Shown: positions 36,744 to 61,841 of the stretch, one piece after another
How the letters are laid out: the number at the start of each line of letters is the position of its first letter
Position numbering within the stretch: the stretch's first letter is position 1
NCBI GenBank assembly: GCA_000017645.1
Contig: CP000781.1
Span: 3,459,501 to 3,523,500 of the forward strand
Length of the DNA stretch: 64,000 nt
DNA from: Xanthobacter autotrophicus Py2
GTDB taxonomy: Bacteria; Pseudomonadota; Alphaproteobacteria; Rhizobiales; Xanthobacteraceae
Direction of reading: 5' to 3'
Program-made: the position numbers and the translations under genes
Notes under the pieces: model-generated
Databases searched by the model: none
What the model saw: the letters and a program-made list of their open reading frames with translations, nothing else
Told to the model about the DNA's origin: nothing

Positions 36744-36772
36744 TTGACAGCGTGACGCTGCCCGGCTAGGTT
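36744..36772 (+). promoter_or_regulatory. Putative promoter of the GTA cluster with palindromic spacer
   Basis: TTGACA at 36744-36749, a 17-base spacer, then TAGGTT at 36767-36772. Within -35 and spacer lies the palindrome CAGCGT-G-ACGCTG (36748-36760), a possible operator. It is about 130 bases upstream of the first GTA gene. The -10 is a weak match (3 of 6). Confidence 0.5.
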
Positions 36773-36900
36773 TTGATCATGTTCGAGACGTGTGCCTGAC
36801 GGGCCTTCACCCCGCGCCGCTCTCGCCGCCGGTTCGCCGGCCTTCCGGCTCCGGCCCCCCTCGGCTCCGGCCTCTTTGGCTTCTGCCCCCTTTTTCGGAC

Positions 36901-37464
36901 ATGCCCATGCGCAAAGCGTTGCCGCCCCGCCGGGTGCCAGCCATGGCACAGCTTGCGCGCCAGCTCTATCTGGATGGCGCGCCAATTGCCGAGATCGCCC
37001 GCCGCACCGCCCTGAAGCCCTCCCAGGTCTATTACTGGATCGACCGGGAGGTGGCGTCCGACGGCACCGTCACCCTGAAGCCGGCGGCCCGGCGGGTGAC
37101 CCTGGCGCCGGGCACCCGCAGCGCCTCGCCGGCGCGGGGGCATCTGTTGTCCCGGCTGTGGCGCGCCGCCGAGCGCCAGCTCGACGAGATCGAGCAGCGC
37201 CTCGCCGCCGCCGTCCCGCCCGAGGCCGATGCGCCGGCCGGTCCGCCCCGCCCCGCCGCCGATGCGGAGAAGGACGCCCGCGCCCTCGCCGTGCTCGCCC
37301 GCACCCTGCGCGAACTCTCGGCCCTGGAGGCGGAGGCGCACAAAAGCCGCAAGGTGAAAGCCGAAGATGACGCCGTCCGCGATCTCGACACCTTCCGCCG
37401 CGAGCTTGCGCGCCGCCTTGAGCGCCTGCGCGCGGACGGGCCGGGCGCAGAGCCTGCTGAATGA
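36901..37464 (+). CDS. Terminase small subunit candidate (GTA g1-like)
   Basis: 187 residues from the ATG at 36901 (another ATG at 36907). The N-terminal region holds a helix-turn-helix, GAPIAEIARRTALKPSQVYYWI (two parts, residues about 25-46), followed by a charged helical region with long coiled segments to the C-terminus. In phages the small subunit recognises DNA and loads the large subunit. The gene overlaps the terminase large subunit start by 98 bases. Assignment rests on the helix-turn-helix, size and position; sequence of this gene is poorly conserved among GTAs. Confidence 0.65.
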   Translation: MPMRKALPPRRVPAMAQLARQLYLDGAPIAEIARRTALKPSQVYYWIDREVASDGTVTLKPAARRVTLAPGTRSASPARGHLLSRLWRAAERQLDEIEQRLAAAVPPEADAPAGPPRPAADAEKDARALAVLARTLRELSALEAEAHKSRKVKAEDDAVRDLDTFRRELARRLERLRADGPGAEPAE

Positions 37465-38737
37465 ATTGCCCGAGGCCGAGGCCGAGATGCTCCTCGCCGA
37501 CTGGGCCCTGTGGGCGCGTCCCGACCAGTTGCCCCCCGACACCGCGCCCTCTGGCGATCCCTGGAGCACCTGGCTGGTGCTGGGCGGGCGCGGCGCCGGC
37601 AAGACCCGGGCCGGCGCCGAATGGGTGCGCGGCCTAGCGCTGGGGCGCCCGCCGTTCGCCGGGCGTCCGGTAGGGCGCATCGCGCTGGTGGCTGAGACCA
37701 TGGCCGATGTGCGCGAGGTGATGGTGGAGGGGGTTTCCGGCCTTCTCGCTGTCCATCCCCGCGCCGAGCGGCCGCGCTGGGAGCCCACCCGGCGCCGGCT
37801 CGAATGGGCCAATGGCGCGGTGGCGCAGGGCTTTTCCGCGGAGGACCCCGAAAGCCTGCGCGGCCCGCAATTCGCCGCCGCCTGGCTGGACGAACTGGCC
37901 AAGTGGAAGCGGGCCGAGGCCACCTTCGACATGCTGCAATTTGGCCTGCGGCTCGGCGCCCAGCCGCGCCAGATGGTGACCACCACGCCGCGCCCCACCG
38001 CTTTGCTGCGGCGGCTTCTGGCCGACCCCTCCACCGCGGTGACGCGGGCGCGCACCGCCGACAATGCCTTCCACCTCGCCCCGAGCTTCCTCGGCCAGGT
38101 GCTGACCCGCTATGGCGGCACCCGCCTCGGCCGGCAGGAACTGGACGGCGAGCTGATCGAGGATCGCGCCGACGCTTTGTTCTCCCGTCCGGCGCTGGAA
38201 GCGCTGCGGGAGGCACAGGTGCCGCCGCTCACCCGCATCGTGGTGGCGGTGGACCCGCCGGCCTCCTCGCGGGCCGGGGCGGATGCCTGTGGCATCGTCT
38301 GCGCCGGCATGGACGCGACGGGCGTGGTGCATGTGCTGGCGGATGACAGCGCCGCCGGCCTGCGCCCCGCCCAGTGGGCGGCGAAGGCGGTGGCGCTGTT
38401 CCGCCGCTTTGAGGCCGATCTTATCGTCGCCGAGGTGAACCAGGGCGGCGAGATGGTGCGCGCCGTCATCGCCGAGGTGGATGACGGCGTTCCGGTGGAA
38501 CAGGTGCGGGCCACGCGCGGCAAGTTCCTGCGCGCCGAGCCCGTGGCCGCGCTCTACGAGCAGGGCCGGGTGCGCCACGCCGGCGCCTTCCCGGCCCTCG
38601 AGGACGAGATGTGCGATTTCGGCACGGATGGCCTCTCCTCCGGCCGCTCGCCGGACCGGCTCGACGCATTGGTGTGGGCGGTCACCGCCTTGGCGCTCGG
38701 CCCAAAGGCCGGCGCGCCGCGGGTGCGGGGGCTGTGA
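37367..38737 (+). CDS. Terminase large subunit (GTA g2-like)
   Basis: 456 residues. ATP-driven DNA-packaging motor and headful nuclease. Walker A GGRGAGKTRAGAEW (residues 73-86), Walker B region FAAAWLDELAKWKR, motif III-like MVTTTPRP, and an RNase H-like nuclease with acidic residues in VVAVDPPASSRAGADACG, LIVAEVNQGGEMV and SPDRLDALVWA. The overlap with the upstream gene suggests coupling; a later start (for example past residue 30) is possible because the conserved part begins at LLNELPEAEAEMLL. Confidence 0.93.
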   Translation: MTPSAISTPSAASLRAALSACARTGRAQSLLNELPEAEAEMLLADWALWARPDQLPPDTAPSGDPWSTWLVLGGRGAGKTRAGAEWVRGLALGRPPFAGRPVGRIALVAETMADVREVMVEGVSGLLAVHPRAERPRWEPTRRRLEWANGAVAQGFSAEDPESLRGPQFAAAWLDELAKWKRAEATFDMLQFGLRLGAQPRQMVTTTPRPTALLRRLLADPSTAVTRARTADNAFHLAPSFLGQVLTRYGGTRLGRQELDGELIEDRADALFSRPALEALREAQVPPLTRIVVAVDPPASSRAGADACGIVCAGMDATGVVHVLADDSAAGLRPAQWAAKAVALFRRFEADLIVAEVNQGGEMVRAVIAEVDDGVPVEQVRATRGKFLRAEPVAALYEQGRVRHAGAFPALEDEMCDFGTDGLSSGRSPDRLDALVWAVTALALGPKAGAPRVRGL

Positions 38738-38840
38738 GGGGGCGCCAAGGCTGGGACCACGTCAACGGCTCCGGTCCGAACCTCGGCGCCGGCAGGGCTT
38801 GACGCATGCGCCTTCCCGCGCCTCATCGCCATCAGGCATC

Positions 38841-39723: not shown

Positions 39724-40221
39724 ATGTGGAAAGCCTTCTTCGCACGCCATGAGCCCCATTGCGGATCGGTCCTCGTCGGCCTGAAGTCCGGCGCCGGGGG
39801 CATGCTCGGCATGGGCCTTGTGGGCGGCGCCGCTGCCTTCACCCAGCTGCCGTTGCTCATCGCGCCGTTCGGCGCCAGCGCGGTGCTGCTGTTCGGCCAT
39901 CCGGCGACGCCGCTGGCGCAGCCGGCCAATGTCATCGGCGGCTATGCGGTCTCCGCCACCATCGGCCTCTTGGTGGCGGTGGTGTTTCCCGGCGCGTGGT
40001 GGGCCGCGGCCCTCGGCGTCGGGCTCGCCATCCTCGCCATGCTGCTCCTGCGCGTGTCCCACCCGCCGGCCGGGGCGGTGCCTATCCTCATGGTGGTGGC
40101 GGCCATCGATCCGTTCGAGCTGGGCGGTATCGTCTTCGCCGGCTCCATCGCTTTGGTGCTGATCGCGAGCCTTTATCACCGGCTGCCGCCGCGTCACGAT
40201 TATCCGCGCCGCATGGCCTGA
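39724..40221 (+). CDS. HPP family membrane protein
   Basis: 165 residues from the ATG at 39724. Four predicted membrane helices with the HPP-family hallmarks: LIAPFGASAVLLFGHPATPLAQP, then VIGGYAVSATIGLLV, and the name motif SHPPAGAVPILMVV. Family members include nitrite or anion transporters; no function can be fixed here. It is not a GTA structural gene, yet sits between terminase and portal in the same direction, and has its own strong terminator right after the stop. Confidence 0.85.
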   Translation: MWKAFFARHEPHCGSVLVGLKSGAGGMLGMGLVGGAAAFTQLPLLIAPFGASAVLLFGHPATPLAQPANVIGGYAVSATIGLLVAVVFPGAWWAAALGVGLAILAMLLLRVSHPPAGAVPILMVVAAIDPFELGGIVFAGSIALVLIASLYHRLPPRHDYPRRMA

Positions 40222-40294: not shown

Positions 40295-41476
40295 ATGCTG
40301 GCCGAGCTTCTCAGCACCTTCCGCCGCCGTCCGCCCGAGGAGAAGGCGAGCCGCGCCGCCCCCCTCATCGCCCTGTTCTCCGCCGGGCGGCCGCGCTGGA
40401 CCCCGCGCGACTATGCGTCCCTGGCCCGCGAGGGCTTTTCCAAGAATGCCATCGCCTATCGCGCGGTGCGGCTCATCGGCGAATCCGCTTCCGCCCTGCC
40501 GCTGCTGCTCATGGCCGGGCGGGAGGAGCTGGAGGTCCATCCGCTGCTGGACCTCATGCGCCGGCCCAACCCGCGCCTCACCGGATCCTCCCTCATGGAG
40601 GCCATCTGCAGCCACCTCATGGTGGCCGGCAACGCCTATGTGGAAGCGGTGGCGGTGGAGGGCGAGATCCGCGAGCTGCACCTGCTACGCCCCGACCGGG
40701 TGAAGGTGGTGCCCGGCCCCGACGGCTGGCCCGAGGCCTATGACTACACCCTCGGCGCGCGCACCGTGCGCATTCCCCAGGACACGCTGGTGGCGGGCGA
40801 GGACGTGCCGGCCATCCTGCACCTCACCGCCTTCAACCCGCTGGACGACCATTACGGCTTCGCCCCGCTGGAGGCCGCCGCGCAGGCCCTCGACCTGCAC
40901 AATGCGGCCAGCGCCTGGAACAAGGCGCTCATCGACAACGCGGCCCGCCCGTCTGGCGCGCTGGTCTACAGCGGCTCGGGCGCGCTCTCCGACGAACAGT
41001 TCGAGCGGCTGAAGGGCGAGCTGGAAGCCTCGTTCCAGGGCGCCGTGAACGCCGGCCGCCCGCTGCTGCTCGAGGGCGGGCTTGACTGGCGGCCGTTGTC
41101 GCTCTCGCCCAAGGACATGGATTTCGAGGCCGCGCGCAATTCCGCCGCCCGCGAGATCGCACTCGCCATCGGCGTGCCGCCGCTGCTGCTGGGCATTCCC
41201 GGCGACAACACCTATGCCAACTACGCCGAAGCCAACCGTGCCCTATGGCGCCAGAGCGTGGTGCCGCTGGTGCGCCGGGTGTGCGACGCGCTCGCCCTGT
41301 GGCTCGGCCCGGCCTATGGCGGCGGCCTGTCGCTGGTGCCCGACCTCGACCAGGCCGAAGCCCTCTCCGCCGAGCGCACCGAATTGTGGGCCCGCATCGG
41401 CGCCGCCGACTTCCTCACCGATGAGGAGAAGCGCGCCGCGACGGGCTATGGCGAGGGGGGACGGCGGCGGGGGTGA
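40295..41476 (+). CDS. Portal protein, HK97 type (GTA g3-like)
   Basis: 393 residues. Forms the dodecameric ring at the capsid vertex through which DNA is packaged. Typical features: EGFSKNAIAYRAVRLIGES near the start, PLLDLMRRPNPRLTGSS, GNAYVEAV, LHLLRPDRVKVVPG, the central LIDNAARPSGAL, the AAREIALAIGVPPLLLGIPG segment and NYAEANRALWRQSVVP. Length matches GTA portals. It is shortly after the HPP terminator. Confidence 0.94.
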   Translation: MLAELLSTFRRRPPEEKASRAAPLIALFSAGRPRWTPRDYASLAREGFSKNAIAYRAVRLIGESASALPLLLMAGREELEVHPLLDLMRRPNPRLTGSSLMEAICSHLMVAGNAYVEAVAVEGEIRELHLLRPDRVKVVPGPDGWPEAYDYTLGARTVRIPQDTLVAGEDVPAILHLTAFNPLDDHYGFAPLEAAAQALDLHNAASAWNKALIDNAARPSGALVYSGSGALSDEQFERLKGELEASFQGAVNAGRPLLLEGGLDWRPLSLSPKDMDFEAARNSAAREIALAIGVPPLLLGIPGDNTYANYAEANRALWRQSVVPLVRRVCDALALWLGPAYGGGLSLVPDLDQAEALSAERTELWARIGAADFLTDEEKRAATGYGEGGRRRG

Positions 41477-41558: not shown

Positions 41559-41849
41559 ATGCGCGGCGGCTGGGTCTATATCCTGACGAACAGGCCGAAC
41601 GGTACGCTCTATGTCGGCGTGACGAATGATCTCGTTCGCAGGGTTTGGGAGCATCGGCAGGGCTCCGCAGATGGCTTTACGAAACGCTATGGCCTGACCA
41701 AGCTGGTGTATTTCGAGGATCACACCGAAATTGCGCTGGCTATTCAGCGGGAGAAGGCGATCAAGCATTGGTCGCGTGCCTGGAAGGCGCGGCTTATTCT
41801 GGATACGAATCCGCAATGGCGTGATCTGTACGAAGATATCATCACCTAA
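41559..41849 (+). CDS. GIY-YIG family nuclease-domain protein
   Basis: 96 residues from the ATG at 41559; an in-frame TTG at 41541 would add six. The GIY-YIG core is GWVYILTNRPNGTLYVGVT, with Arg in DLVRRVWEHRQG, Glu in FEDHTEIALAIQREKAIKHW and a C-terminal NPQWRDLYEDI, typical of the COG2827-type single-domain proteins found widely in bacteria. Codon use is visibly less GC-rich than in the neighbours. It is not part of known GTAs, and a family B repeat follows the stop directly, so insertion is likely. Confidence 0.85.
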   Translation: MRGGWVYILTNRPNGTLYVGVTNDLVRRVWEHRQGSADGFTKRYGLTKLVYFEDHTEIALAIQREKAIKHWSRAWKARLILDTNPQWRDLYEDIIT

Positions 41850-42100: not shown

Positions 42101-42289
42101 ATGGACATCCTCATCCGCACCTTCGCGGAGCGGGGCGATCTTGCGCATCTGGCGCTGCTGCTGTGGGCGCTTGCCGCGTCCGCCGGGCTGTGGCGCGCGC
42201 TGGGCGAGGTCTCCCGCGCCAGCGCACGCATGGATGATTTCGTGCGCGAGCTGGCCCGCTTCAACGCCCGTTTCGACGAGCTTCCCTGA
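42101..42289 (+). CDS. Small membrane protein (GTA g3.5-like)
   Basis: 62 residues from the ATG at 42101. One hydrophobic helix (about residues 14-32, LAHLALLLWALAASAGLW) then a charged amphipathic helix (RMDDFVRELARFNARFDEL). RcGTA also has a short ORF between portal and protease (g3.5); similarity here is of size and place only. Confidence 0.6.
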   Translation: MDILIRTFAERGDLAHLALLLWALAASAGLWRALGEVSRASARMDDFVRELARFNARFDELP

Positions 42290-42514: not shown

Positions 42515-42994
42515 ATGGCGGACGGCTTTCCCATCGAGGGCTATGCCTGCCTGTTCGACGTGGCGGACCTCGGCCGCGACCTGGTGCTGCCCGGCGCCTT
42601 CGCAGCGAGCCTTGCCCGGCAGGGCGCGGGCGGCGTGCGCCTCCTCTACCAGCACGATCCGGCCGAGCCCATCGGAGTGTGGACCGAGGCATTCGAGGAC
42701 ACGCGCGGCCTTTATGTGCGCGGCCGCCTCTCTCCCGACGTGGTGCGCGCCCGTGAATGCGCGGCGCTGATCGCAGAGGGCGCGCTCGACGGCCTCTCCA
42801 TCGGCTTCAAGGCGGTGGAGGCGCGGACCGATCCGCGCACCCGCCTGCGCCGGCTGTCGCGCATCGACCTGTGGGAGGTGTCCATCGTCACCTTCCCCAT
42901 GCAGCCGGGGGCGCGCATCGCCCGCCCGCCGGCCGCCCCCGCGGCCCTGCTGTCCGCCGCCGCGGCCCGCCTGCGCGCGGGCTCCCGCATCTGA
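42515..42994 (+). CDS. HK97-type prohead protease (GTA g4-like)
   Basis: 159 residues. Matures the capsid by removing the capsid-protein N-terminus and then itself. The family pattern is clear: FPIEGYACLFDVADLGRDLV, the conserved histidine in LLYQHDPAEPIG (His47), the serine in LDGLSIGFKAVEA (Ser95), and LWEVSIVTFPMQPGARI. It immediately precedes the major capsid gene, as in all HK97-like modules. Confidence 0.94.
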   Translation: MADGFPIEGYACLFDVADLGRDLVLPGAFAASLARQGAGGVRLLYQHDPAEPIGVWTEAFEDTRGLYVRGRLSPDVVRARECAALIAEGALDGLSIGFKAVEARTDPRTRLRRLSRIDLWEVSIVTFPMQPGARIARPPAAPAALLSAAAARLRAGSRI

Positions 42995-43021: not shown

Positions 43022-44308
43022 ATGTCCCATCCCGACACCGCCCGCACCATCGCTGGCGCGCCTGAGACCAAGGTGGCCGGCGCCGAGGCCACTTCCGCCG
43101 AGGCCAGCTCCGCCGTGGCCGATTTCCTTGCCGCCTTCGAGACCTACAAGCAGGTGAACGACACCCGCCTGGCGCAGATGGAGCGGCGCAGCGCCGACGT
43201 GCTCACCACCGAGCAGCTGGCCCGTATCGATGCCGCCCTCGATACCCACAAGGCGCGGCTCGACGCCCTCGCCACCAAGGCGCGCCGGCCCGCGCTCGGC
43301 GCCGCGCCGGAGCGCACCGAGGCGCCCGCCGCCACCCGCGAGCACACCGATGCCTTCGCCACCTATGTGCGCCACGGCGAGGCCGGCGGCCTGAAGGCGC
43401 TGGAGGCGAAGGCCCTGTCCTCCGCGTCCGGCGATGCGGGCGGCTACCTCGTGCCCTCGGAGACCGAGACCGAGATCGGCCGGCGCCTTGCGGTGCTCTC
43501 GCCCATCCGCGCGCTGGCCTCGGTGCGGACCATCGGCGGCGGCACCTATCGCAAGCCGTTCATGACCTCCGGCCCGGTCTCCGGCTGGGCGGCGGAGACG
43601 GCGGCCCGGCCGGAAACCGCGAGCCCGGTGCTGGCGGAACTGGCCTTCCCGGCCATGGAGCTCTACGCCATGCCCGCCGCCACCCAGTCGCTGCTGGACG
43701 ACGCGCAGGTGAATGTGGAGGAGTGGCTCGCCACCGAGGTGGACACCGCCTTCGCGACCCAGGAGGGGGTGGCCTTCGTCACCGGCGATGGCGTTGCCAA
43801 GCCCAAGGGCTTCCTCGCCTACACCAAGGTGGCCGAGAGCGCCTGGGCCTGGGACAAGGTGGGCTATGTGGCCACCGGGGCTGCGGGCGCCTTCCCGTCC
43901 GCGACGCCGGCCGATCCGCTGCTGGATCTGGTCTATTCGCTGAAGGCCGGCTACCGGCAGAACGCCACCTTCGTCATGAACCGGCAGACGCAGGGCGCCG
44001 TGCGCAAGCTGAAGGACGAGAACGGCAATTACCTGTGGGCGCCGCCCGCCGGGGTGGGCCAGGCCGCGAGCCTGATGGGCTTCCCGGTGGTGGAGAGCGA
44101 GGCCATGCCGGATGTGGCGGCCGACGCCTATGCCATCGCCTTCGGCGACTTCCGCCGCTTCTACCTGGTGGTGGACCGCGCCGGGGTGCGGGTGCTGCGC
44201 GATCCCTATTCGGCCAAGCCCTACGTGCTGTTCTACACCACCAAGCGCGTGGGCGGCGGGGTGCAGGACTTCGACGCCGCCAAGCTGCTGAAGTTCGCCG
44301 CGAGCTGA
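43022..44308 (+). CDS. Major capsid protein, HK97 fold (GTA g5-like)
   Basis: 428 residues. The first 120 or so form a helical, Ala/Thr-rich delta-like domain that the protease would remove. The HK97 core begins near GDAGGYLVPSETETEIGRRL and includes PFMTSGPVSGWAAETAARPE, the FVTGDGVAKPKGFL loop, FVMNRQTQGAVRKLKDENG and LMGFPVVESEAMPDVAADAY. It is likely the most abundant protein of the particle. A family A repeat follows. Confidence 0.95.
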   Translation: MSHPDTARTIAGAPETKVAGAEATSAEASSAVADFLAAFETYKQVNDTRLAQMERRSADVLTTEQLARIDAALDTHKARLDALATKARRPALGAAPERTEAPAATREHTDAFATYVRHGEAGGLKALEAKALSSASGDAGGYLVPSETETEIGRRLAVLSPIRALASVRTIGGGTYRKPFMTSGPVSGWAAETAARPETASPVLAELAFPAMELYAMPAATQSLLDDAQVNVEEWLATEVDTAFATQEGVAFVTGDGVAKPKGFLAYTKVAESAWAWDKVGYVATGAAGAFPSATPADPLLDLVYSLKAGYRQNATFVMNRQTQGAVRKLKDENGNYLWAPPAGVGQAASLMGFPVVESEAMPDVAADAYAIAFGDFRRFYLVVDRAGVRVLRDPYSAKPYVLFYTTKRVGGGVQDFDAAKLLKFAAS

Positions 44309-44594: not shown

Positions 44595-45560
44595 TCAGTT
44601 CGGCAGCACCAGGCAGGCGCCGCCGGCCTTGCGCAGGCGGTCGCAGATTTTCATGCCCTCGGCCTTGGTCTGGGCCGGCAGGCGCACGCGATAGAAGGTG
44701 CGCGGGCCGCGCCCGCCCACCCGCGTCGCCACGATCACCGGCGTCAGGTCGCCGAATTCGGCGGGATGCCGGGTCGCCTCCCGGCGGAATGAGGCGAGGG
44801 CGATGTCGCGTGAGTAATTGCCGGAGATCTGCACCCCCCAGGGGGCGAACAGTGGGTTGGCCGGCTCGCCCGCCAGCGGCGCCGGCGCGCCCTTGCGCAG
44901 GGCGGCGACGGTGGCAAGGCAGGCCTCCTGCGGCAGCGCCGGGGCCTCGCTTGCCTTGTCGGCTCCCTTGTCCGCACCCTGCCGCCGCAGCGCCGCCCAG
45001 TCCTCCGCCGGGCGGCCGGTGATGATGCGCACATAGGCGCGCGTCTCTTCCGGCAGTCCGCCGCCGTTGAGGAAGCCGGAGACGCGCCCGGGACCGGCAT
45101 TGTAGGCCGCCGCCGCCAGCCCCAGATTGCCGAAGCGGCGGTTGAGGTCGGCGAGCAGCGCCGCTGAGGCCGGGATCGCCGCCTCCGGATCGAACGGATT
45201 TTGAAGCCCGCGCTCCTTCGCCGTGCCGGGCATGAACTGGGCGATGCCCTGCGCCCCCTTGTTGCTCACCACGTGGGGCCGGAACGAGCTTTCGCGCCAG
45301 ATGAGGCGGGTGAGAAAGGCGGCCGGCAGGCCCTCTTTGGCCGCCGCCGCGTCGATGAGGCGGCAGATGGCCTGGTCCACCGTTTCGCCCCCCGCGCGGG
45401 GCGTGGGATCGGGCGGGGTGGGCGATGCTGCGGCCGGCTTCTCCGGGGCGGCTTCGCCCGTGCTCTGGCCGAAGGCCGGCCCGGCGCCGAGAAGGGCGAG
45501 CACGGCAGCAGCGATGATCCGGCCGGCGCGCCTAAAACGGGGCGATGCGGCCGGTGCCAT
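44595..45560 (-). CDS. Lytic transglycosylase with SPOR domain
   Basis: 321 residues. A signal peptide (RIIAAAVLALLGAGPAFGQ) and Pro/Ala linker precede an SLT domain at about residues 60-190: LIWRESSFRPHVV (catalytic Glu90), NKGAQGIAQFMPGTAKERG, and AAAYNAGPGRVSGFL. The last 85 residues form a SPOR peptidoglycan-binding domain (WGVQISGNYSRDIALASF; TFYRVRLPAQTKAEGMKIC). It cleaves peptidoglycan in the periplasm. It lies opposite to the GTA genes, next to a trypsin-like protease gene, 2 bases apart, so these two are likely co-transcribed. Not a known GTA gene. Confidence 0.92.
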   Translation of the reverse strand: MAPAASPRFRRAGRIIAAAVLALLGAGPAFGQSTGEAAPEKPAAASPTPPDPTPRAGGETVDQAICRLIDAAAAKEGLPAAFLTRLIWRESSFRPHVVSNKGAQGIAQFMPGTAKERGLQNPFDPEAAIPASAALLADLNRRFGNLGLAAAAYNAGPGRVSGFLNGGGLPEETRAYVRIITGRPAEDWAALRRQGADKGADKASEAPALPQEACLATVAALRKGAPAPLAGEPANPLFAPWGVQISGNYSRDIALASFRREATRHPAEFGDLTPVIVATRVGGRGPRTFYRVRLPAQTKAEGMKICDRLRKAGGACLVLPN

Positions 45561-53291: not shown

Positions 53292-53728
53292 CCGCGTCCC
53301 TCACCCGCGCCGCCATCCTCAAAGAGGCGCGAAGCTGGATCGGCACGCCCTATCTTCATCGCGCCTCGCTGAAGGGGCAGGGGGCGGACTGCCTTGGCCT
53401 CGTGCGCGGGGTTTGGCGGGAGCTGGTCGGCCCCGAGCCGGAGGCCATGCCCTCCTATGCGCCGGACTGGGCTGAGGCCGGCCGCCGCGAGACCCTGGCG
53501 GAGGCGGCCGGGCGTTGCCTTGTCGCCATGCCGGTGGAGGCGGCGCAGCCCGGCGACGTGCTGCTGTTCCGCTTCCGCGCCCATCTTCCGGCCAAGCACG
53601 CGGCGATCCTCGCCGAGGGTGGGCGCATGATCCACGCCTATGACGGCGCGCACGTCTGCGAAGGCTATCTGGCGCCCTGGTGGCGCCGCCGCCTCGCCTT
53701 CGCCTTCGCCTTTCCGGGGATCGAATAG
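53288..53728 (+). CDS. NlpC/P60 peptidoglycan peptidase of the tail (GTA g14-like)
   Basis: 146 residues from the ATG at 53288 (ATGA overlap). Cysteine peptidase with GADCLGLVRGVWREL (nucleophile Cys) and the histidine in AKHAAILAEGGRMIHAY. In GTAs and phages it degrades peptidoglycan during DNA entry. Confidence 0.92.
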   Translation: MTASLTRAAILKEARSWIGTPYLHRASLKGQGADCLGLVRGVWRELVGPEPEAMPSYAPDWAEAGRRETLAEAAGRCLVAMPVEAAQPGDVLLFRFRAHLPAKHAAILAEGGRMIHAYDGAHVCEGYLAPWWRRRLAFAFAFPGIE

Positions 53729-53759: not shown

Positions 53760-56700
53760 ATGGCGACCCTGCTTCTCGGCGCGGCCGGCAGCCTTGTCGG
53801 CGGCGCGCTGTTCGGCCCTGTCGGCGCCATCGCCGGGCGGGCGCTGGGCGCCCTCGGTGGCGCGGTGATCGATGGCGCCCTGTTCGGCGGCAACCGCTCG
53901 CGCAACACCCAAGGCCCGCGCCTCACCGACCTCGACGTGATGGGCTCCACCGAGGGCACGCCGCTGCCCCGCGTCTATGGCCGCGCGCGCCTCGCCGGGC
54001 AGGTGATCTGGGCGACGAAGCTGAAGGAGGTGGCCACCACCGCCACCCAGTCCACCGGCGGCAAGGGTGGCAGCCTCGGCGCGTCCCAGCCCACCACCAC
54101 GACCTACACCTATTACGGCAATTTCGCCGTGGCGGTCTGCGAGGGGCCGCTGTCGCGCATCGGCCGCATCTGGGCCGACGGCAAGCTCATGGACACCCGC
54201 CGCCTCACCGTGCGCCTGCATCTGGGCGACGAGGCGCAGGTGCCAGATCCCCTCATCGAGGCGCGGCAGGGAGCCGGCGCGACGCCCTCCTATCGCGGCG
54301 TCGCCTATGTGGTGTTCGAGAATCTGGAACTGACCGACTACGGCAATCGCCTGCCCCAGATCACAGTGGAGGTGGAGCGCGCGGTGGGTGCGCTGGAGCG
54401 GCAGGTGCGGGCAGTGACGCTCATCCCCGGCGCCAGCGAGTTCGCCTACGATCCGCGCACCGTGCGCCAGCTGCACGGGCCGGCGCGCTTCAGCCGTGAG
54501 AACCGCCATGTGAGCACCGCGGCGAGCGACTTCGAGGTGGCCATCGACCAGCTCACCGGCACCTGCCCGAACGTGGAGCGGGTGTCCCTGGTGGTGGCCT
54601 GGTTCGGTGACGACCTCAGGGCCGGGGCCTGCACCGTGCGCCCGCGCACCGAGCGCACCGACAAGACCACGTCCATCGACTGGACGGTGGGCGGCGAGAC
54701 CCGCTTCAGCGCCCTCGCCGTCTCCCAGTATGAAGGCCGCTCCGCCTATGGCGGCACGCCCTCCGACGACAGCGTGGTGCGGGCCATCGCCCGGCTCAAG
54801 GCGGCCGGCCTGAAGGTGACGCTGAACCCGTTCGTGATGATGGACATTCCCGTCGCCAACACCCGTCCCGATCCCTGGACCGGCGCGAGCGCCCAGCCGG
54901 CCTATCCCTGGCGCGGGCGCATCGTGTGCGATCCGGCGCCGGGCCGGCCGGGTACGGTGGATGGCACCGCCGCCTGCCGGACGCAGGTCGAAGCCCTGTT
55001 CGGCAGCGCCGCGCCGGGGGATTTCACCCGCACTGGTTCGACCGTGCTCTATCACGGCCCGGCCGAATGGAGTCTGCGGCGCATGGTGCTCCACTACGCG
55101 CATCTCGCGGTGGCGGCGGGGGGCGTGGAGGCCATCCTCATCGGCTCGGAGATGGTGGCGCTCACCCGCCTCACCGACGACACCGGCGCGTTTCCCGCCG
55201 CCGAGGCGCTGGCCGCCCTCGCCGCCGACGTGAAGGCGGTGGTGGGCGCCGAGACCCGCGTCTCCTATGCCGCCGACTGGACCGAATACGGCGCGCAGGT
55301 GAGGACCAATGGCGACGTGCGCTTTCCGCTGGATCAGGTGTGGAGTGCGCCGGCGGTGGACTTCATCGGCATCGATTTCTACCCGCCGCTTTCCGACTGG
55401 CGCGACGGCGCCGGCCATCTCGACGCCACGCTTGCCGCCGACATCCACGACCGCGCCTATCTGAAGGCCAACCTCAGCGCGGGCGAGGGGTTCGACTGGT
55501 TCTATGCGGATGACGCCGCTCGCGCCGCGCAGGTGCGCACGCCCATCACCGACGGCGCTTATGGCGAGCCGTGGCTGTATCGCCAGAAGGACCTGAAATC
55601 GTGGTGGGCCAATGCCCATCACGAGCGCATCGCCGGCACCCGCCTGGCGACGCCCACCGCGTTCGCCCCCGGCGCCAAGCCCATCCGCCTGATGGAGACC
55701 GGCTGCCCCGCCGTGGACAAGGGCGCCAACCGGCCGAGCGTCTTCCCCGACGCCAAGTCGTCCGAGAATGCCCTGCCGCCCTTCTCCACCGGCGCGCGGG
55801 ACGACCTCATCCAGCGCCGCTTCCTGGAGGCGGTGCTCGGCACTTTCGCCCCCGACGCAGACGAAGCCGACAATCCGCCCGCACCGCTCTATGGCGGGCG
55901 CATGGTGGAAGAGGCCTTCGCCTGGACCTGGGACGCGCGGCCCTTCCCGCAATTTCCCCTCGCCGAGAGCGTGTGGGCGGACGGCGCCAACTGGGCCACC
56001 GGCCACTGGCTCACCGGCCGCCTCGGCGGTGCGCCGCTCGATGGGCTGGTGGCGACGCTCTGCGCCGATTTCGGCGTGAGCGATGTGGACGCCGCGAGCC
56101 TCTCCGGCGGGGTGGACGGCTATGTGGTGGACCAGCCCATGGCCGGCCGCGACGCGCTGGAGCCGCTCGCCCGCGCCTTCGCCTTCGAGGCCGGGGAGGC
56201 GGAGGGGCGCATCGCCTTCCGCGCCCATGGTGTCGGGACAATGAGGGAGATCGGCACCGACGATCTGGTGCGCAGTGCCGACGACCCGCTCGTCTCCTCC
56301 ACCCGCGCGCAGGAGAGCGAACTGCCGTTGCAGGTTTCCATCGGCTTCGTGGACAGCCTGAAAGATTATCGCCGCGCCACCGTCGCCTCCCGCCGGCTCA
56401 AGGGGGGCAGCCGCCATGTGAGCCATGCAGACCTTGCCGTGGTGGCCTCCGACGCGACGATCGTGCGGGCCGCAGACATCTGGCTGCAGGACCTGTGGGC
56501 GGGGCGGGAGACCTTCACCTTTTCGCTGCCGCCCTCGCTGCGTGCGCTAACGCCCGGCGATCTGGTGCGCCTCACGCTCGACGGGCGGGCGCGGCTCTTG
56601 GAAATCACCCGCGTGGAGGAAGGGGAGGCGCTGGCCGTCACCGCCCGCAGCATCGAGCCGGAGGTGTTCGACGCGGCGCTGGCGCAGGCTTCGGGAGGCA

Positions 56701-57662
56701 GCGTGGCGCTGCCCGCCGTGTCCGGCCCGCCGGAGGTGATGGTGCTGGACCTGCCCGCCTTGTCGGAGGCGGAGCCCTTGCCGCTGCAACATCTTGCTGC
56801 CGCCGCCACGCCCTGGCCGGGGACGCTGGCCATCTGGCGCTCGGGGGATGGCGAGAGCTTCGAGGCGGTGGCGCCGGTCACCGCCTCCGCCACCTTCGGC
56901 ACGCTGATCTCGGACCTGTCGCCGGGGCCGGTCTGGCGCTTCGATCGCTCCGGAAGCGTGGATGTCCTGCTGCAATCCTCGCTCGTCATTCCGGCGCGCG
57001 AGAGCGAGGTGCTGGCCGGAGCCAATCTCGCTGCTTTGGTCGTGGAAGGGCGGGCGCTGGAACTCATCGCCTTCACCGGCGCCGAACTGATCGACACCGA
57101 CACCTACCGCCTCTCCGGCCTGTTGCGCGGCCTTGCCGGCACCGAGGCGGCCGGCGCTTCGCTGTGGCCTGCGGGCACGCGCCTCGTGCGCATCGACGGC
57201 ACGCTGGTGAGCGTGGCGAGCGGCCTCTCGGCGCTGGGGCGCAGCTCCATCTACCGGGTCGGCCTGGCGCGGGACGACCAGGGATCGGAGGATGTCACCG
57301 AAGTGACCGCAACCGCCTCCGGCCTCGCCCTGCGTCCGCTGTCGCCGGTGCATGTGCGCGGGCGGCGCACGGCGGAGGGCGTGGCCCTCTCCTTCATCCG
57401 CCGCACCCGCATCGCCGGCGATGGCTGGGACGCGCTGGAGGTGCCCTTGGGCGAGGCGAGCGAGGCCTATCGGGTGGAGATCCTCGCCGGCGCCAGCGTG
57501 GTGCGGGCCTTCGAGGTCAGCGCGCCCCAGTTGCTCTATGGGGTCGCCGACGAACTGGCCGATTTCGGCACGCCGCAAGCCACCCTCACCGTGCGCGTCG
57601 CCCAGCGCTCCGCCAGCGTCGGCTTGGGCGCGGCGGTGACGGCGGTGGTGGTGGTGTCTTAG
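53760..57662 (+). CDS. Tail tip / host-recognition protein (GTA g15-like)
   Basis: 1300 residues. A Gly/Ala-rich hydrophobic N-terminus (SLVGGALFGPVGAIAGRALG) is followed by hub-like domains, then a TIM-barrel glycoside-hydrolase-like domain at about residues 400-730 (LHYAHLAVAAGGVEAILIGS; DFIGIDFYPPLSDWRDGAGH), then Phage-tail_3 and beta-rich C-terminal domains with PVHVRGRRTAEGVALSFIRR. It forms the central fibre of the tail tip. Full length, no frameshift. Confidence 0.93.
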   Translation: MATLLLGAAGSLVGGALFGPVGAIAGRALGALGGAVIDGALFGGNRSRNTQGPRLTDLDVMGSTEGTPLPRVYGRARLAGQVIWATKLKEVATTATQSTGGKGGSLGASQPTTTTYTYYGNFAVAVCEGPLSRIGRIWADGKLMDTRRLTVRLHLGDEAQVPDPLIEARQGAGATPSYRGVAYVVFENLELTDYGNRLPQITVEVERAVGALERQVRAVTLIPGASEFAYDPRTVRQLHGPARFSRENRHVSTAASDFEVAIDQLTGTCPNVERVSLVVAWFGDDLRAGACTVRPRTERTDKTTSIDWTVGGETRFSALAVSQYEGRSAYGGTPSDDSVVRAIARLKAAGLKVTLNPFVMMDIPVANTRPDPWTGASAQPAYPWRGRIVCDPAPGRPGTVDGTAACRTQVEALFGSAAPGDFTRTGSTVLYHGPAEWSLRRMVLHYAHLAVAAGGVEAILIGSEMVALTRLTDDTGAFPAAEALAALAADVKAVVGAETRVSYAADWTEYGAQVRTNGDVRFPLDQVWSAPAVDFIGIDFYPPLSDWRDGAGHLDATLAADIHDRAYLKANLSAGEGFDWFYADDAARAAQVRTPITDGAYGEPWLYRQKDLKSWWANAHHERIAGTRLATPTAFAPGAKPIRLMETGCPAVDKGANRPSVFPDAKSSENALPPFSTGARDDLIQRRFLEAVLGTFAPDADEADNPPAPLYGGRMVEEAFAWTWDARPFPQFPLAESVWADGANWATGHWLTGRLGGAPLDGLVATLCADFGVSDVDAASLSGGVDGYVVDQPMAGRDALEPLARAFAFEAGEAEGRIAFRAHGVGTMREIGTDDLVRSADDPLVSSTRAQESELPLQVSIGFVDSLKDYRRATVASRRLKGGSRHVSHADLAVVASDATIVRAADIWLQDLWAGRETFTFSLPPSLRALTPGDLVRLTLDGRARLLEITRVEEGEALAVTARSIEPEVFDAALAQASGGSVALPAVSGPPEVMVLDLPALSEAEPLPLQHLAAAATPWPGTLAIWRSGDGESFEAVAPVTASATFGTLISDLSPGPVWRFDRSGSVDVLLQSSLVIPARESEVLAGANLAALVVEGRALELIAFTGAELIDTDTYRLSGLLRGLAGTEAAGASLWPAGTRLVRIDGTLVSVASGLSALGRSSIYRVGLARDDQGSEDVTEVTATASGLALRPLSPVHVRGRRTAEGVALSFIRRTRIAGDGWDALEVPLGEASEAYRVEILAGASVVRAFEVSAPQLLYGVADELADFGTPQATLTVRVAQRSASVGLGAAVTAVVVVS

Positions 57663-58024: not shown

Positions 58025-58726
58025 ATGACCGACCAGTCGGCGAACCTGGCGCTGCCCTATATCGCGGCGGCGCAGGCGCAGAAGCATGTCACCCATAATG
58101 AGGCCATCCGCCGCCTCGACGCCTTCGTGCAGTTGGTGCTGGAGAGCGCCACCGCCGCCGCCCCGCCGGCCACCCCCGCCGAGGGGGCGCGCTGGTTCGT
58201 GCCGGCCGGCGCGAGCGGCGCCTTCGCGGGACACGCCGGCACCATCGCCGCCTATGAGCAGGGCGCGTTCGACTTCCTGCCGGTGGCGCAGGGCTTCCTC
58301 GCCTTCATCCGCGACGAGGGCCGGCTCGCGGTTTTTGACGGCGGCGCCTTCGTCTCGCCCTTCGCCGCCAGCGCCCATCGCGCGGCCATCGCCGGCCAGG
58401 TGATGGAGGAGGATGTGGCGCTGTCCGGCAGCTTCGTTGCCACCACCATGACGATCCCGGACCGCGCCGTCGTGCTGGCCGTCTCCACCCGCACGCTCAC
58501 CGCCGTGACCGGCGCAACTTCTTATGATTGCGGCATTTCCGGCGAGGCCGCCAAGTTTGGCGGCAGCCTCGGGGCGGTGGCGGGTTCCGCCAATGTGGGG
58601 GTCATCGGCCCTACCGCCTTCTATACCGCGACGCCGGTGCGCCTCACCGCCAACGGCGGCAGCTTCTCCGGCGGCACCGTGCGGGTCGCCCTCCACCTTC
58701 TTCTGTGCTCCGCGCCGCAGGCCTGA
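58025..58726 (+). CDS. DUF2793 fibre protein (rcc00171-like)
   Basis: 233 residues. The DUF2793 signature is at the start: NLALPYIAAAQAQKHVTHNE, then AIRRLDAFVQLVLES, GARWFVPAGASGAFAGH and WRASSP-free beta region FAFIRDEGRLAVFDGGAF-like. The last 100 residues are a separate domain. In R. capsulatus the DUF2793 protein rcc00171 is a GTA tail fibre encoded away from the main cluster. Confidence 0.85.
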   Translation: MTDQSANLALPYIAAAQAQKHVTHNEAIRRLDAFVQLVLESATAAAPPATPAEGARWFVPAGASGAFAGHAGTIAAYEQGAFDFLPVAQGFLAFIRDEGRLAVFDGGAFVSPFAASAHRAAIAGQVMEEDVALSGSFVATTMTIPDRAVVLAVSTRTLTAVTGATSYDCGISGEAAKFGGSLGAVAGSANVGVIGPTAFYTATPVRLTANGGSFSGGTVRVALHLLLCSAPQA

Positions 58727-58759: not shown

Positions 58760-59080
58760 ATGCCCTACGATCCCACCCGCGATCCCCTGAAGGGGCTTGC
58801 GTCCTCCCTGTCGTCGCCGGCGCGCCAGCTCACGCGCATCACCCCCGCCGACGGCGCCGACCTCGCCACCTATGCCAAGGCCCTGTGGGTCTATGTGCCC
58901 GAGGACGTGGCCGGCGGCGTCGCCACCATCCGCATCACCCCGGTGGCCGGCGGCGATGCGGAGACGGTGGACGTGCTGGCGCTCCCCGGCCTCCAGCCGC
59001 TGCCGCCCTGCCAGGTGCGGCGGGTGTGGGCCACCGGCACCAGCACGGGCCTTGCCATCTACGCCCTCGCCGATCGCTGA
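58760..59080 (+). CDS. Head-spike base protein (rcc01079 / GhsA-like)
   Basis: 106 residues. Beta-rich, with RQLTRITPADGADLATYAKA, LWVYVPEDVAGGVATIRIT and CQVRRVWATGTSTGLAIYAL. These match the small spike-base family that in R. capsulatus anchors the head spike. Followed by a 52-codon ORF and the SGNH spike gene. Confidence 0.78.
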   Translation: MPYDPTRDPLKGLASSLSSPARQLTRITPADGADLATYAKALWVYVPEDVAGGVATIRITPVAGGDAETVDVLALPGLQPLPPCQVRRVWATGTSTGLAIYALADR

Positions 59081-59101
59081 CGCCTGCTGAAGGAGCTTCC
59101 C

Positions 59102-59260
59102 ATGCTCTCGCTTTCGCTTTCGCTCACCACGCTCCGGCGGCGCGCCGGCCTGCCTTTGCGCAGGGTGGTGGGCGGCATCGCCTATGGCCGCCTCAAGGGG
59201 CGCGGCGGCAGCGTCCTGTCGTCCCGCGCCGGCCAGGCCATTTATGGAAGGATTGCCTGA
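59102..59260 (+). CDS. 52-residue basic ORF between spike base and spike genes
   Basis: ATG at 59102 to TGA at 59258-59260, with GAAGGAG-like purines a few bases upstream. The product is basic and has no acidic residue (MLSLSLSLTTLRRRAGLPLR; then GGIAYGRLKGRGGSVLSSRA). Its stop overlaps the next ATG (TGATG), suggesting coupled translation. No family recognised. Confidence 0.55.
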   Translation: MLSLSLSLTTLRRRAGLPLRRVVGGIAYGRLKGRGGSVLSSRAGQAIYGRIA

Positions 59261-60510
59261 TGTTCCTCACCGACGATCCCGATTTCGCCGCCGCCCGGCA
59301 GGCCGCGCAGGGCTACAATCGTTCCACGCTGGTGCTGATGGGCGACAGCCGCCTTGCCGGATTCTTCAACGATCCCAGCACCAAGCTGATGCGCCAGGGC
59401 GCCAATTTCCTGCGCTGCGGCCTTGCCCTTTCGGGGCAGCGGATGCGGGTGGAGAAATCGTTCGCGGTGTCCGGCCAGCGCTCCGACCAGTATCTGGCGG
59501 CCGCCAACGTGACCCAGGCGCTGGCCTGCAAGAGCCACTGGCTGGTGCTCTACGGCGTCGCCAACGACATCGGCCAGCTGTCGAACACGGTCGATCACTT
59601 CACGGTCAACATCAAGCCGGTGGCCGATGCCTGGACCGCCACCGGCCGCGGCGTCATCCTGATCACCGAGACCGGGGGCAACAGCTTCACGACGCCCGAG
59701 GCGCGCGGCGCCGTGTTCCGGTACAACCGGCAGGTCCGCGACTATTGCCGGGCGAACCGCGGCGCCATCCTGTTCGACGCGGCCGCCGTCGTCATGGACC
59801 CGTCCCAGCCCATGACCCTCAACCCCGCCTATTCGGGGGACGGCCTTCACATCGGCCTCACCGCCGGGGCCTATGTGCTGGGCAAGGCGTTCGCCGATCT
59901 CATCAAGCAGATCGCCCCGCCGTGCGACGGCCTGGTCTATTCGGCGGGCCAGGTGTTCGCCAATGGCGGCATGCAGCTGTTTTCCAACCCGCTGTGGCTC
60001 ACCACCACCGGCGGCACCGGCAGCGGCATCATGACCGGCACGGTGCCGGCCGGCATCACCGGCATTTCGGCGCCGGCCAGCTCGTCCATCGTCGGCTCGG
60101 TGGCGGCGGGGGCCTATGGCAATGATCTCCAGCTCGCCCTCACGGCGGGGGCGGCAGGCGTCTTCAAGGTCAAGTGCGACTTCGTCTCCGAGCTGGAGAT
60201 CGTCGGCGAGACCTATTACGCCAATGCCGAGCTGGACGTGGCCTCGGGTGCCACCAATTTCCAGTCCTGCGGCGTGCACCTGGAATGCAACCGCGCCGGC
60301 GCCACCACCACCACCGAGGACGGCTTCGTGGGCACCTCCGCCGGCAACCTGCCGTCCGGCGCCTACAGCTTCGTCTGCGAGACCGAGCGGCTCACCATCC
60401 CGACCGGCAGCCGCGGCTGGCTCTCGGCTTGGCTGGTCTTCTACTTCTCGGCCGCCGGCAGCGCCACGGTCAAGGCGCGCCGCTTCGGCGTCTGGCGTCA
60501 GCAGGGCTGA
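59260..60510 (+). CDS. SGNH-hydrolase spike protein (rcc01080 / GhsB-like)
   Basis: 416 residues from the ATG at 59260. The N-terminal half is a GDSL/SGNH hydrolase: LVLMGDSRLAGFFNDP (Ser), LYGVANDIGQL (Asn) and YSGDGLHIGLTAGAYVLG (Asp-His). The C-terminal half (from about residue 220) is a beta-sandwich resembling a carbohydrate-binding domain. In R. capsulatus GhsB forms head spikes that bind the recipient's capsule. A hydrolase active site could act on acylated capsule. Confidence 0.83.
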   Translation: MFLTDDPDFAAARQAAQGYNRSTLVLMGDSRLAGFFNDPSTKLMRQGANFLRCGLALSGQRMRVEKSFAVSGQRSDQYLAAANVTQALACKSHWLVLYGVANDIGQLSNTVDHFTVNIKPVADAWTATGRGVILITETGGNSFTTPEARGAVFRYNRQVRDYCRANRGAILFDAAAVVMDPSQPMTLNPAYSGDGLHIGLTAGAYVLGKAFADLIKQIAPPCDGLVYSAGQVFANGGMQLFSNPLWLTTTGGTGSGIMTGTVPAGITGISAPASSSIVGSVAAGAYGNDLQLALTAGAAGVFKVKCDFVSELEIVGETYYANAELDVASGATNFQSCGVHLECNRAGATTTTEDGFVGTSAGNLPSGAYSFVCETERLTIPTGSRGWLSAWLVFYFSAAGSATVKARRFGVWRQQG

Positions 60511-60548
60511 TCCGCCGCCGCCTCTCTTCAATCCATCAGGGGACATCC

Positions 60549-61421
60549 ATGGCCAAGACCAGCTTCGCGCCGGCGCTCACCGCCGTGCTGCGCCACGAGG
60601 GCGGCTATTCCAACCATCCCGACGACCCCGGCGGCCCGACCATGAAGGGCATCATCCAGCGGGTCTATGACGGCTACCGGCGCGGCAAGGGGCTTGCCGT
60701 GCGCCCGGTGCGCGAGATCGAGGAGGAGGAGCTCCAGGAGATCTACCGCCGCCAGTATTGGGACGCCATCCGCGCCGACGAACTGCCGGAGGGCATCGAC
60801 TATGTGGTGTTCGACGGGGCGGTGAATTCCGGTCCGGGCCAGTCGGTCAAATGGCTGCAGCGGGCGCTGGGCCTGCCAGCGGACGCCGAGATGGGGGCGG
60901 TGACCCTGGCCGCCGCCCGCGCGGCGGCGGAGACCGCGCCGGCGCGGCTCGTGGACGACATCTGCGACCGCCGCCTCGCCATGCTCAAGGCGCTTCGCAC
61001 CTGGCCGGTGTTCGGCCGCGGCTGGGGCCGGCGGGTGGAGGACGTGCGCAAGGCCGGCAAGGCGTGGGTTGCGGGTGGCGCACCGGCCCGCCGCATCGCG
61101 GTGCTGGAGAGCCATCGCACCGCCGCGCAGGGCGGAGCGTCCGGCAAGGCGCCGGTCGCCAGCGCTCGCGCGGCGCCGAGGCCGCAGGCCGGCGCCGGAG
61201 CGGCGGCGGGCGGCATCGCCGCGTCCGCCGTGTCCGAGGCGGCGCGCCAGATCGCCCCCCACGCGCAGGCGTCCTCGACGCTGGCGCTGGTCTTCACGGG
61301 GCTCACGCTGCTGGGCCTCGCCCTCACGCTGGGCGGCATCGCCTATGTGTGGTGGAGCGCCCGCGCCGGGGCCCGCCGGGCGGCAATCCTCGACCTCCTG
61401 CCCGCGGGGCCGGCGTCGTGA
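60549..61421 (+). CDS. GH108 endolysin with C-terminal membrane helix
   Basis: 290 residues from the ATG at 60549. Residues 1-170 are an N-acetylmuramidase of family GH108: LRHEGGYSNHPDDPGGPTMK (catalytic Glu17), REIEEEELQEIYRRQYWD and DYVVFDGAVNSGPGQSVKWL, with the peptidoglycan-binding part. A Ala-rich linker leads to one membrane helix (about 240-265, LVFTGLTLLGLALTLGGIAY). It would release GTA particles. The stop overlaps the next start (GTGA). Confidence 0.9.
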   Translation: MAKTSFAPALTAVLRHEGGYSNHPDDPGGPTMKGIIQRVYDGYRRGKGLAVRPVREIEEEELQEIYRRQYWDAIRADELPEGIDYVVFDGAVNSGPGQSVKWLQRALGLPADAEMGAVTLAAARAAAETAPARLVDDICDRRLAMLKALRTWPVFGRGWGRRVEDVRKAGKAWVAGGAPARRIAVLESHRTAAQGGASGKAPVASARAAPRPQAGAGAAAGGIAASAVSEAARQIAPHAQASSTLALVFTGLTLLGLALTLGGIAYVWWSARAGARRAAILDLLPAGPAS

Positions 61422-61726
61422 GCGGCCTTGCCCATCTTCTCGGCTATGGCGTGCCCTGGTGGCTCTGGGGCATGGCGGGTCTTCTCGCCGTCGCGGCGCT
61501 GGCATGGCTTGCCGGACCGCGCGCGGCGCTGGCGGCGGCGGCCGTGCTCGCCTTCGCCATTGCGCACCGGAAGGGGGCGCAGCAGGGCTATTCCCACGCC
61601 ATCAAGGAAGGAGAACGCGATGCCGAGCGCATCCTCGATACGGCCCGTGCTGCCCGCTCTGGCGCTGATCGGCGCGATGGCGATGCTCGCCGGCTGCGCG
61701 ACGACGACGGGTTCCGGCGCGAGTAA
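61418..61726 (+). CDS. Inner-membrane spanin-like protein
   Basis: 102 residues from the GTG at 61418. Two hydrophobic stretches within residues 12-49 are followed by a charged, helical C-terminus (GYSHAIKEGERDAERILDTA, then RDGDARRLRDD). The gene is overlapped from 61620 by a lipoprotein in another frame, as with Rz and Rz1. Sequence similarity to known i-spanins is not evident; the call rests on topology, order and overlap. Confidence 0.6.
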   Translation: MSGLAHLLGYGVPWWLWGMAGLLAVAALAWLAGPRAALAAAAVLAFAIAHRKGAQQGYSHAIKEGERDAERILDTARAARSGADRRDGDARRLRDDDGFRRE

Positions 61727-61841
61727 GGTCTATTGCGGCGCCGCCCAGCCCATTCGTTGGTCGGCGGCCGACAGCGACGAGACCATCCGCCAGGCAAAGG
61801 CCCATAATGCCGTGGGCCGCCGCCTGTGCGGCTGGACATGA
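61620..61841 (+). CDS. Outer-membrane spanin-like lipoprotein
   Basis: 73 residues from the ATG at 61620, within the frame of the preceding gene shifted by one, preceded by GAAGGAG. A lipoprotein signal ends LIGAMAMLAGC (lipidation Cys26); the mature part is about 48 residues. Small lipoproteins overlapping an inner-membrane partner next to an endolysin are typical o-spanins. Confidence 0.65.
   Translation: MPSASSIRPVLPALALIGAMAMLAGCATTTGSGASKVYCGAAQPIRWSAADSDETIRQAKAHNAVGRRLCGWT

Follow-up and report, generated by a model that had tools for sequence, protein, structure and literature searches.

A Gene Transfer Agent-like Locus of Xanthobacter That Includes Fibre, Spike and Lysis Genes, Probably in the Gene Order of a Phage Ancestor

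Introduction

The genes of the gene transfer agent (GTA) of Rhodobacter capsulatus, RcGTA, are described as dispersed over five loci (PMC9662315), and CtrA, together with GafA, is reported to fire the head-spike, fibre and lysis genes of this bacterium from separate loci (PMC9638019). According to a review, having multiple loci is one of the things that make GTAs difficult to find (PMC11841831). In prophages of Methylobacterium nodulans, fibre and endolysin homologues have already been reported to lie side by side (PMC11409702). Statements on published systems, here and below, refer to the excerpted text of each cited paper.

A 64,000-nucleotide stretch of the chromosome of Xanthobacter autotrophicus Py2 (GenBank CP000781.1, positions 3,459,501 to 3,523,500; hereafter the window, in which all coordinates are counted) carries the RcGTA-type genes g1 to g15 in order, with fibre, spike and lysis genes directly behind them. 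An earlier note, made from the letters alone, had read it as a GTA genome gathered into one locus. Homology supports an RcGTA-like GTA locus with these functions in one place, and it is the word "gathered" that has to be given up, because the locus is likely to have preserved the gene order of an ancestral phage rather than to have been assembled anew, a reading to which we assign a probability of about two in three. The prediction that follows is that DNA-carrying particles are formed.

Genes Behind g15

The megatron gene g15 (53760..57662, plus strand; PF13547, E = 1.8e-136; RcGTA structure PDB 6tba, 5.2e-290) is followed by a bay of 4.2 kb, in which all six genes named in the earlier note are present on the plus strand. 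The fibre gene (58025..58726) has a DUF2793 domain (PF10983, 2.1e-31) and matches PDB 8gtc_S (6.9e-42), an entry that also contains a phage megatron. The product of the head-spike base gene (58760..59080) matches RcGTA Rcc01079 (PDB 6tb9) at 0.049 as a single sequence and at 6.3e-12 as a profile of 13 sequences, and is counted as its homologue, so that the comparison with RcGTA proteins proposed in the earlier note gave direct matches for both megatron and spike base. The next gene (59260..60510) encodes an SGNH/GDSL domain (4.7e-8), then a beta-sandwich resembling carbohydrate-binding modules, and is predicted to be the spike; the AlphaFold2 (AF2) model of this protein, built from two rows, leaves the N-terminal part unmodelled, and no SGNH structure is among the matches listed for it.

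The endolysin gene (60549..61421) is assigned through its GH108 (PF05838, 4.7e-29) and PHROG endolysin (phrog_315, 4e-53) matches rather than by comparison with the rcc00555 sequence, and its product has a C-terminal membrane segment (residues 241-267) by hydropathy. The last two frames are a putative Rz/Rz1-type spanin pair: the lipoprotein-like outer frame (61620..61841), which starts within the inner one, matches the Rz-like spanin family phrog_1275 (3.8e-12), and the inner frame (61418..61726), present in 25 other loci, has no PHROG match and is a predicted spanin by position and hydropathy. Genome-wide there is one DUF2793 gene and one GH108 gene, both in this locus. Promoter and terminator scans of positions 57500-62000 gave nothing above chance.

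In the proposed mechanism, g1 to g15 would build the particle, and fibre and spikes would bind sugars on the recipient surface, a role for which RcGTA is the precedent. The endolysin would cut peptidoglycan and the spanins would disrupt the outer membrane. Because no holin family match was found among the bay genes in Pfam or PHROGs, the membrane tail of the endolysin or the hydrophobic stretch of the inner spanin may time lysis.

The bay genes are under purifying selection. In comparisons with Xanthobacter oligotrophicus 29k and X. autotrophicus DSM 432, whose megatrons are 93% and 95% identical to that of the window in the best segments, fibre, base, endolysin and spanins give ratios of nonsynonymous to synonymous substitution rates of 0.13-0.35, and g5-g15 give 0.02-0.22; with the more distant YC-JY1 and X. 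aminoxidans the ratio reaches 0.42-0.63 for the spanins and 0.15-0.47 for g5-g15 without g5. The complete set of fibre, base, endolysin and two spanins occurs in 13 of 80 named loci (seven Xanthobacter, two Aquabacter, three Ancylobacter and Xanthobacteraceae 501b), and two Azorhizobium loci lack a base match only. The earlier note would have been contradicted if positions 58025-61841 were missing from close relatives, and this is so in part: of the ten loci named Xanthobacter that extend 5 kb or more downstream, seven carry the whole set and three are incomplete.

Position of the Fibre Gene in Other Genomes and in Phages

With PF13547 as the marker, a megatron was detected in 110 of 150 genomes of the order and in 21 of 210 genomes of the class, three of the latter (including the window's own) lying within the order. 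A fibre was scored as adjacent when a DUF2793 match lay at most 5 kb downstream of the megatron TIM domain on the same strand. Excluding the genome of the window, the fibre is adjacent in 59 of the 109 order genomes with a megatron, elsewhere in at most 39 and absent from 11; the corresponding counts for the 18 megatron genomes of other orders are 12, 3 and 3. Megatron surroundings were taken from all matching order genomes except G075, and second megatron matches were included for G064, G092, G116 and G149 and left out for G118, G141 and G004.

The same arrangement, with the fibre behind the megatron, is present in all eight phages that we chose to open. On a FastTree phylogeny of 123 g15 rows, five of them from phages, rooted on a Desulfofustis phage (fibre adjacent in 73, not adjacent in 43, uncertain in 7), parsimony requires at least 19 changes, all of which can be explained as losses, whereas 33 changes are needed if only gains are allowed. 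Shuffling the states 200 times never gave fewer than 27 changes, and in a two-rate model the gain rate is near zero. Fibre and g15 distances correlate at 0.43, the largest value in 300 permutations being 0.18, and the correlation is similar for adjacent fibres (0.40) and for those elsewhere (0.46). Because the opened phages share the arrangement and losses alone explain the tree, the ancestral nature of the fibre position behind the megatron is well supported. The scattered arrangement known from Rhodobacter is likely to have arisen later, and dispersal of the fibre would have occurred many times. The earlier note had left it undecided whether its layout was ancestral or gathered again; for the fibre the first answer is favoured, a verdict that does not extend to the endolysin or the spike.

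Variable Slots Between g15 and the Regulator

Just outside the GTA lies a gene for an OmpR-type response regulator (61888..62694, plus strand), followed by a kinase gene. Of the 95 order loci for which 8 kb or more was examined, 79 have this regulator, which serves here as an anchor, behind g15 and in the same orientation. No gene similar to it was found in the phage stretches examined. Phage RDJL3 (L230) has, behind its fibre at 13975-14814, an annotated CzcR-like response regulator that is dissimilar to the anchor.

The content of the anchored bays varies. In 83 anchored order loci, the window included, fibre and lysis genes occur together in 22, lysis genes alone in 23, a fibre alone in 21 and neither in 17, the median length of the last being 657 bases. 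A spanin match is found in 14 of the 83. The lysis slot is filled across the order by at least six hydrolase types, whose representatives match GH108, GH24, GH19, M15, CHAP and Hydrolase_2; a three-locus group (L070-L072) has only a weak PG_binding_1 match. Hydrolase clusters had first been merged through shared peptidoglycan-binding domains and were then split, with one representative of each named. A GH108-only profile had made lysis seem rare, and counting any hydrolase altered that picture.

The spike slot varies too, even between strains, in the seven Xanthobacter loci (the window, 29k, AM3, DSM 432, AM5, YC-JY1 and X. aminoxidans) whose megatrons are at least 75% identical to that of the window. 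Full-length homology of the gene that follows the base is confined to pairs, namely window and AM3 (86% identity), 29k and DSM 432 (89%) and YC-JY1 and X. aminoxidans (62%); the AM5 gene shares about 32-36% identity over 63-116 residues with those of the window and AM3. SGNH domains also occur at other positions in YC-JY1 and in a Xanthobacter metagenome-assembled genome (MAG), and the Ancylobacter spike-slot protein that was scanned has a LamG-like lectin domain. For both lysis and spike, the position of the slot recurs and the genes in it are probably exchanged. The variation of the spike slot is the pattern that would be expected from exchange of receptor-binding cassettes, as in phages, and such swapping would change recipient range and lysis chemistry while the particle stays the same.

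Origin of the Locus

The reading that the locus kept the gene order of a phage ancestor, with the fibre position inherited from the phage and the lysis and spike genes swapped within their slots, has to be set against three alternatives. In one of these, the place of the fibre is ancestral, whereas the bay acquired its endolysin, spanins and spike base from phages at a later time and separately in each lineage. Parsimony on the g15 tree leans slightly in its favour when the genes are taken singly, with 11 changes under gain and 13 under ancestral presence for GH108, 6 and 8 for the spanin and 4 and 6 for the base, and different hydrolase families occupy the same slot. When all lysis hydrolases are pooled, however, ancestral presence is slightly favoured (21 against 23 changes; 26 with losses only against 30 with gains only), and in phages RcKvothe and RcSimone-Hastad annotated lysis genes closely follow the fibre. 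This mixed origin is judged unlikely. A secondary reunion in Xanthobacteraceae of functions once scattered as in Rhodobacter is most improbable: the five loci of RcGTA and the tendency of GTAs toward multiple loci stated in a review (PMC9662315, PMC11841831) would agree with it, whereas the 33 fibre gains that it needs, against 19 losses, and the gene order common to the phages opened do not. An active or decayed prophage would have phage-like gene order with spanins and might retain, as g1 does, a helix-turn-helix (HTH) domain that RcGTA gp1 is described as lacking (PMC6854486). Phage g15 rows also form no clade and are scattered among the bacterial ones, RcKvothe standing beside L004 and L010, so that some of the loci scored may be prophages. 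The clade of the window itself (families f1, f20, f42 and f52) contains no phage row, and g11 encodes 190 amino acids, against about 600 to 1130 for the tape measures of the phages opened. No integrase or replication gene is found among the 30 products scanned, and these cover little of the window's first 35 kb. The chromosomal neighbour common to 79 of 95 order loci argues for the vertical inheritance at a fixed site that is expected of a GTA. One published criterion for an RcGTA-like GTA locus (alphaproteobacterial type I) asks for at least nine RcGTA head-tail homologues in one cluster (as quoted in PMC11409702), a number exceeded here by g1-g10 and g12-g15, scored by family or PDB match, with direct homology to RcGTA sequences tested for g15 and the spike base. 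A prophage is judged improbable, though less so than secondary reunion.

Several observations weigh against retention of the ancestral order. Outside the order, only 4 of 16 loci have the anchor regulator downstream of g15, and within it the regulator is absent from 16 of the 95 loci, among them second copies such as L004, L010 and L040. X. agilis and NM-59 have the fibre alone of the set, and a Xanthobacter MAG locus (L122) has the fibre, base and SGNH protein without endolysin or spanin; in X. agilis, the stretch behind the fibre also holds a gene for a protein with a peptidoglycan-binding domain. The eight opened phages are our own choice out of 147 records that match the megatron; five were picked once the fibre search had been made, and only 59 phage records match the fibre at all. 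The g15 tree has weak branches and a single-phage root, and 14 rows shorter than 700 residues, three from phages, were dropped from it. At depth, the nearest fibre often differs from the nearest g15. The count of 39 fibres elsewhere is an upper bound because several of them reflect contig breaks (G002, G008 and G016), and the sample excludes R. capsulatus itself.

Small Terminase and Timing of Lysis

The product of g1 (36901..37464, plus strand), the small terminase (TerS), has an N-terminal HTH within residues 18-65 (PF13518, HTH_28, 1.1e-6, above the Pfam cut-off; PF06056, 1.8e-5), whereas a GTA-type TerS is expected to have no N-terminal DNA-binding domain (Sherlock 2019). An AF2 model from three rows, of low confidence overall (mean pLDDT 58; 66-79 for residues 11-50), places helices at residues 14-24, 29-36 and 40-53, followed by long helices; the best Foldseek rows for it are mostly HTH proteins, none at E<=0.001. 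Matches to g1 occur in 61 of 150 order genomes. An N-terminal extension with an HTH by eye is present in all 11 relatives examined, seven of which precede the megatron by some 12-13 kb in the same orientation, the other four being on other contigs. Pfam detects the HTH at E<0.01 in three of the ten relatives scanned (L262, L265 and L269), above the cut-off in L269 only; seven of the ten are in the GTA position, including two of these three, L262 being on another contig. The g1 frame of L273, from another order, has no HTH by eye and is not included in these counts. It is conceivable, although doubtful, that the locus is a living intermediate between phage and GTA, in which a one-locus order goes with a DNA-reading TerS and packaging from preferred chromosomal sites, random packaging having come later, after loss of the HTH and scattering of the accessory genes.

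In four species, Ancylobacter polymorphus, A. rudongensis, A. dichloromethanicus and Xanthobacteraceae 501b (L096, L097, L098 and L118), the endolysin gene is preceded by a perfect TTAA-N7-TTAA box of the CtrA type, 38-43 bases ahead of the called frame and 56-57 ahead of the profile match. Altogether, seven perfect boxes occur in 523.5 kb of anchored bays (one genome being counted twice) where 2.0 are expected from base composition, against three in the 1692.4 kb made up of g15 and the sequence before it, where 4.3 are expected. The two remaining bay boxes are at the endolysin start in L194 and just before the regulator in L099. None was found in the Xanthobacter loci examined. Control of lysis by a CtrA box was considered for the window and rejected, as the 64 kb contain nothing within one mismatch of the box; a lone TTAA half-site lies between g15 and the fibre.

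Structural Genes, Inserts and Repeats

As the earlier note had stated, g1 to g15 lie in order from terminase to megatron, with TerS, large terminase (TerL), portal, protease, capsid, connectors, tail tube, g10, g12, g13, g14 and megatron identified in Pfam, PHROG and PDB searches and g11 named by position. Two details differ: the most likely start of g1 is at 36901 and not at 36744, and the series is interrupted by six frames without an RcGTA match, four of them on the minus strand, which had gone unmentioned. All structural genes are on the plus strand. The head genes comprise g2 for TerL (37367..38737; Terminase_6N, 3.7e-30, and Terminase_6C, 1.4e-24), g3 for the portal (40295..41476; PF04860, 8.2e-86), a small g3.5-like gene so called by position (42101..42289; no Pfam match, in 19 loci including the window), g4 for the prohead protease (42515..42994; PF04586, 8.6e-31) and g5 for the major capsid protein (43022..44308; PF05065, 3.3e-91). 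A second portal gene, perhaps of a prophage, lies elsewhere on the chromosome (G000:C1:4109496-4110512; L002). The connector genes are g6 for the head-tail connector (46576..47139; PF05135, 1.1e-8) and g7 for the head completion protein (47136..47456; PF05521, 2.1e-21), followed by a conserved small gene (47453..47740; no PHROG match, in 30 loci including the window) and by g8 for tail completion (47737..48156; PF11367, 1.3e-39). The tail genes are g9 for the tail tube (48188..48595; PF06199, 1.3e-48), g10 (48624..48980; GTA-gp10, PF11836, 1.3e-29), a g10.1-like gene (48980..49189; phrog_30523, 4.3e-4), g11 for the putative short tape measure (49199..49771; no Pfam match, in 193 loci including the window), g12 for the distal tail protein (51753..52394; PF09343, 1.1e-82), g13 for the hub (52401..53291; PF09931, 1.1e-58) and g14 for an NlpC/P60 peptidase (53288..53728; PF00877, 3e-7). 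Rfam (gathering) and tRNA scans of the whole window were empty.

Two of the inserts are on the plus strand and encode an HPP family membrane protein (TM_HPP, 39724..40221; PF04982, 6.3e-40), which has no relative in other loci, only 16 of 229 of which extend to TerL, and a GIY-YIG nuclease (41559..41849; PF01541, 1.1e-14). The minus-strand inserts include, between g5 and g6, a lytic transglycosylase gene (SLT, 44595..45560; PF01464, 3.4e-23) and a trypsin-like protease gene (45563..46564; PF00089, 2.8e-24), the latter given from its first start codon, the true start probably being further in. Between g11 and g12 lie a frame without a Pfam match that recurs in five other loci (49800..50218) and a lysine/alanine/proline-rich repeat frame, histone H1-like by eye, likewise without a Pfam match and present in ten other loci (50951..51643).

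Of the 75 loci with both g5 and g6, 38, the window included, have the trypsin-like gene between the two on the opposite strand. In three megatron-less genomes of one family (G050, G087 and G121), two copies of this gene lie 0.57-0.67 kb from a regulator gene 78-81% identical to the anchor, with a kinase gene behind it, an arrangement that looks like the scar of a lost GTA which once separated them. A role of the trypsin-like gene as a GTA component was weighed and set aside, as these genomes retain it beside the same regulator. In other genomes of the window's family (G035, G112 and G143), a relative is kept away from the regulator.

An extragenic repeat is present in the cluster in three copies (38844-38973, 39410-39536 and 44381-44500; 68-82% identical to the first), two of them between TerL and the HPP insert. 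A second, palindromic repeat lies beside the GIY-YIG insert (41850-41964) and again between g15 and the fibre (57717-57896), a gap that is 362 bases long in the window against about 30 in many relatives.

Comparison with Known Systems

In the order-wide sample, a fibre directly behind the megatron is the commoner and likely the older state, from which the fibre would have been dispersed repeatedly, and in most of the order the locus ends at the regulator. The bay that this gene and g15 enclose thus offers a new handle for programs that search for GTAs, and fibre, spike and lysis genes become predictable by position in many genomes. Two questions become testable: what holds lysis back when its genes follow the structural ones, and whether packaging became random through loss of the DNA-binding domain of TerS. 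Among the matches listed in the literature, which did not cover subscription papers, there is no title on GTA spanins for gene transfer agent and spanin, and none on this locus for Xanthobacteraceae, Hyphomicrobiales and Azorhizobium.

The Xanthobacter locus resembles RcGTA, of the Rhodogtaviriformidae, in the order g1-g15, in its megatron (5.2e-290) and in its spike base homologue (6.3e-12), and RcGTA too has fibre, spikes and an endolysin; it differs in having one locus instead of five (PMC9662315) and a g1 with an HTH, whereas RcGTA gp1 is described without one (PMC6854486). The GTA of Caulobacter crescentus, CcGTA, has a head-tail cluster of the same type, but its fibre gene ccna_02456 is away from the cluster, no holin or endolysin homologue is reported as found in the excerpted text (PMC9632790), and lysis is attributed to LypABC (PMC13236601). 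In M. nodulans, homologues of rcc00171 and rcc00555 adjoin an RcGTA-like head-tail cluster in LC1-LC5, which are interpreted as prophages or remnants and of which three lie near an integrase (PMC11409702); the Xanthobacter locus has in addition a spike base and spanins, and a chromosomal neighbour common to most of the order. The megatron phages (vB_DshS-R4C, R5C, RcKvothe, RcCronus, RDJL3 and others) share with it the order g12-g15 followed by a DUF2793-type fibre in the eight opened, some with annotated lysis genes soon after the fibre, but they are free phages with longer tape measures, and their megatrons are at most 42.1% identical among the listed rows covering at least 80%.

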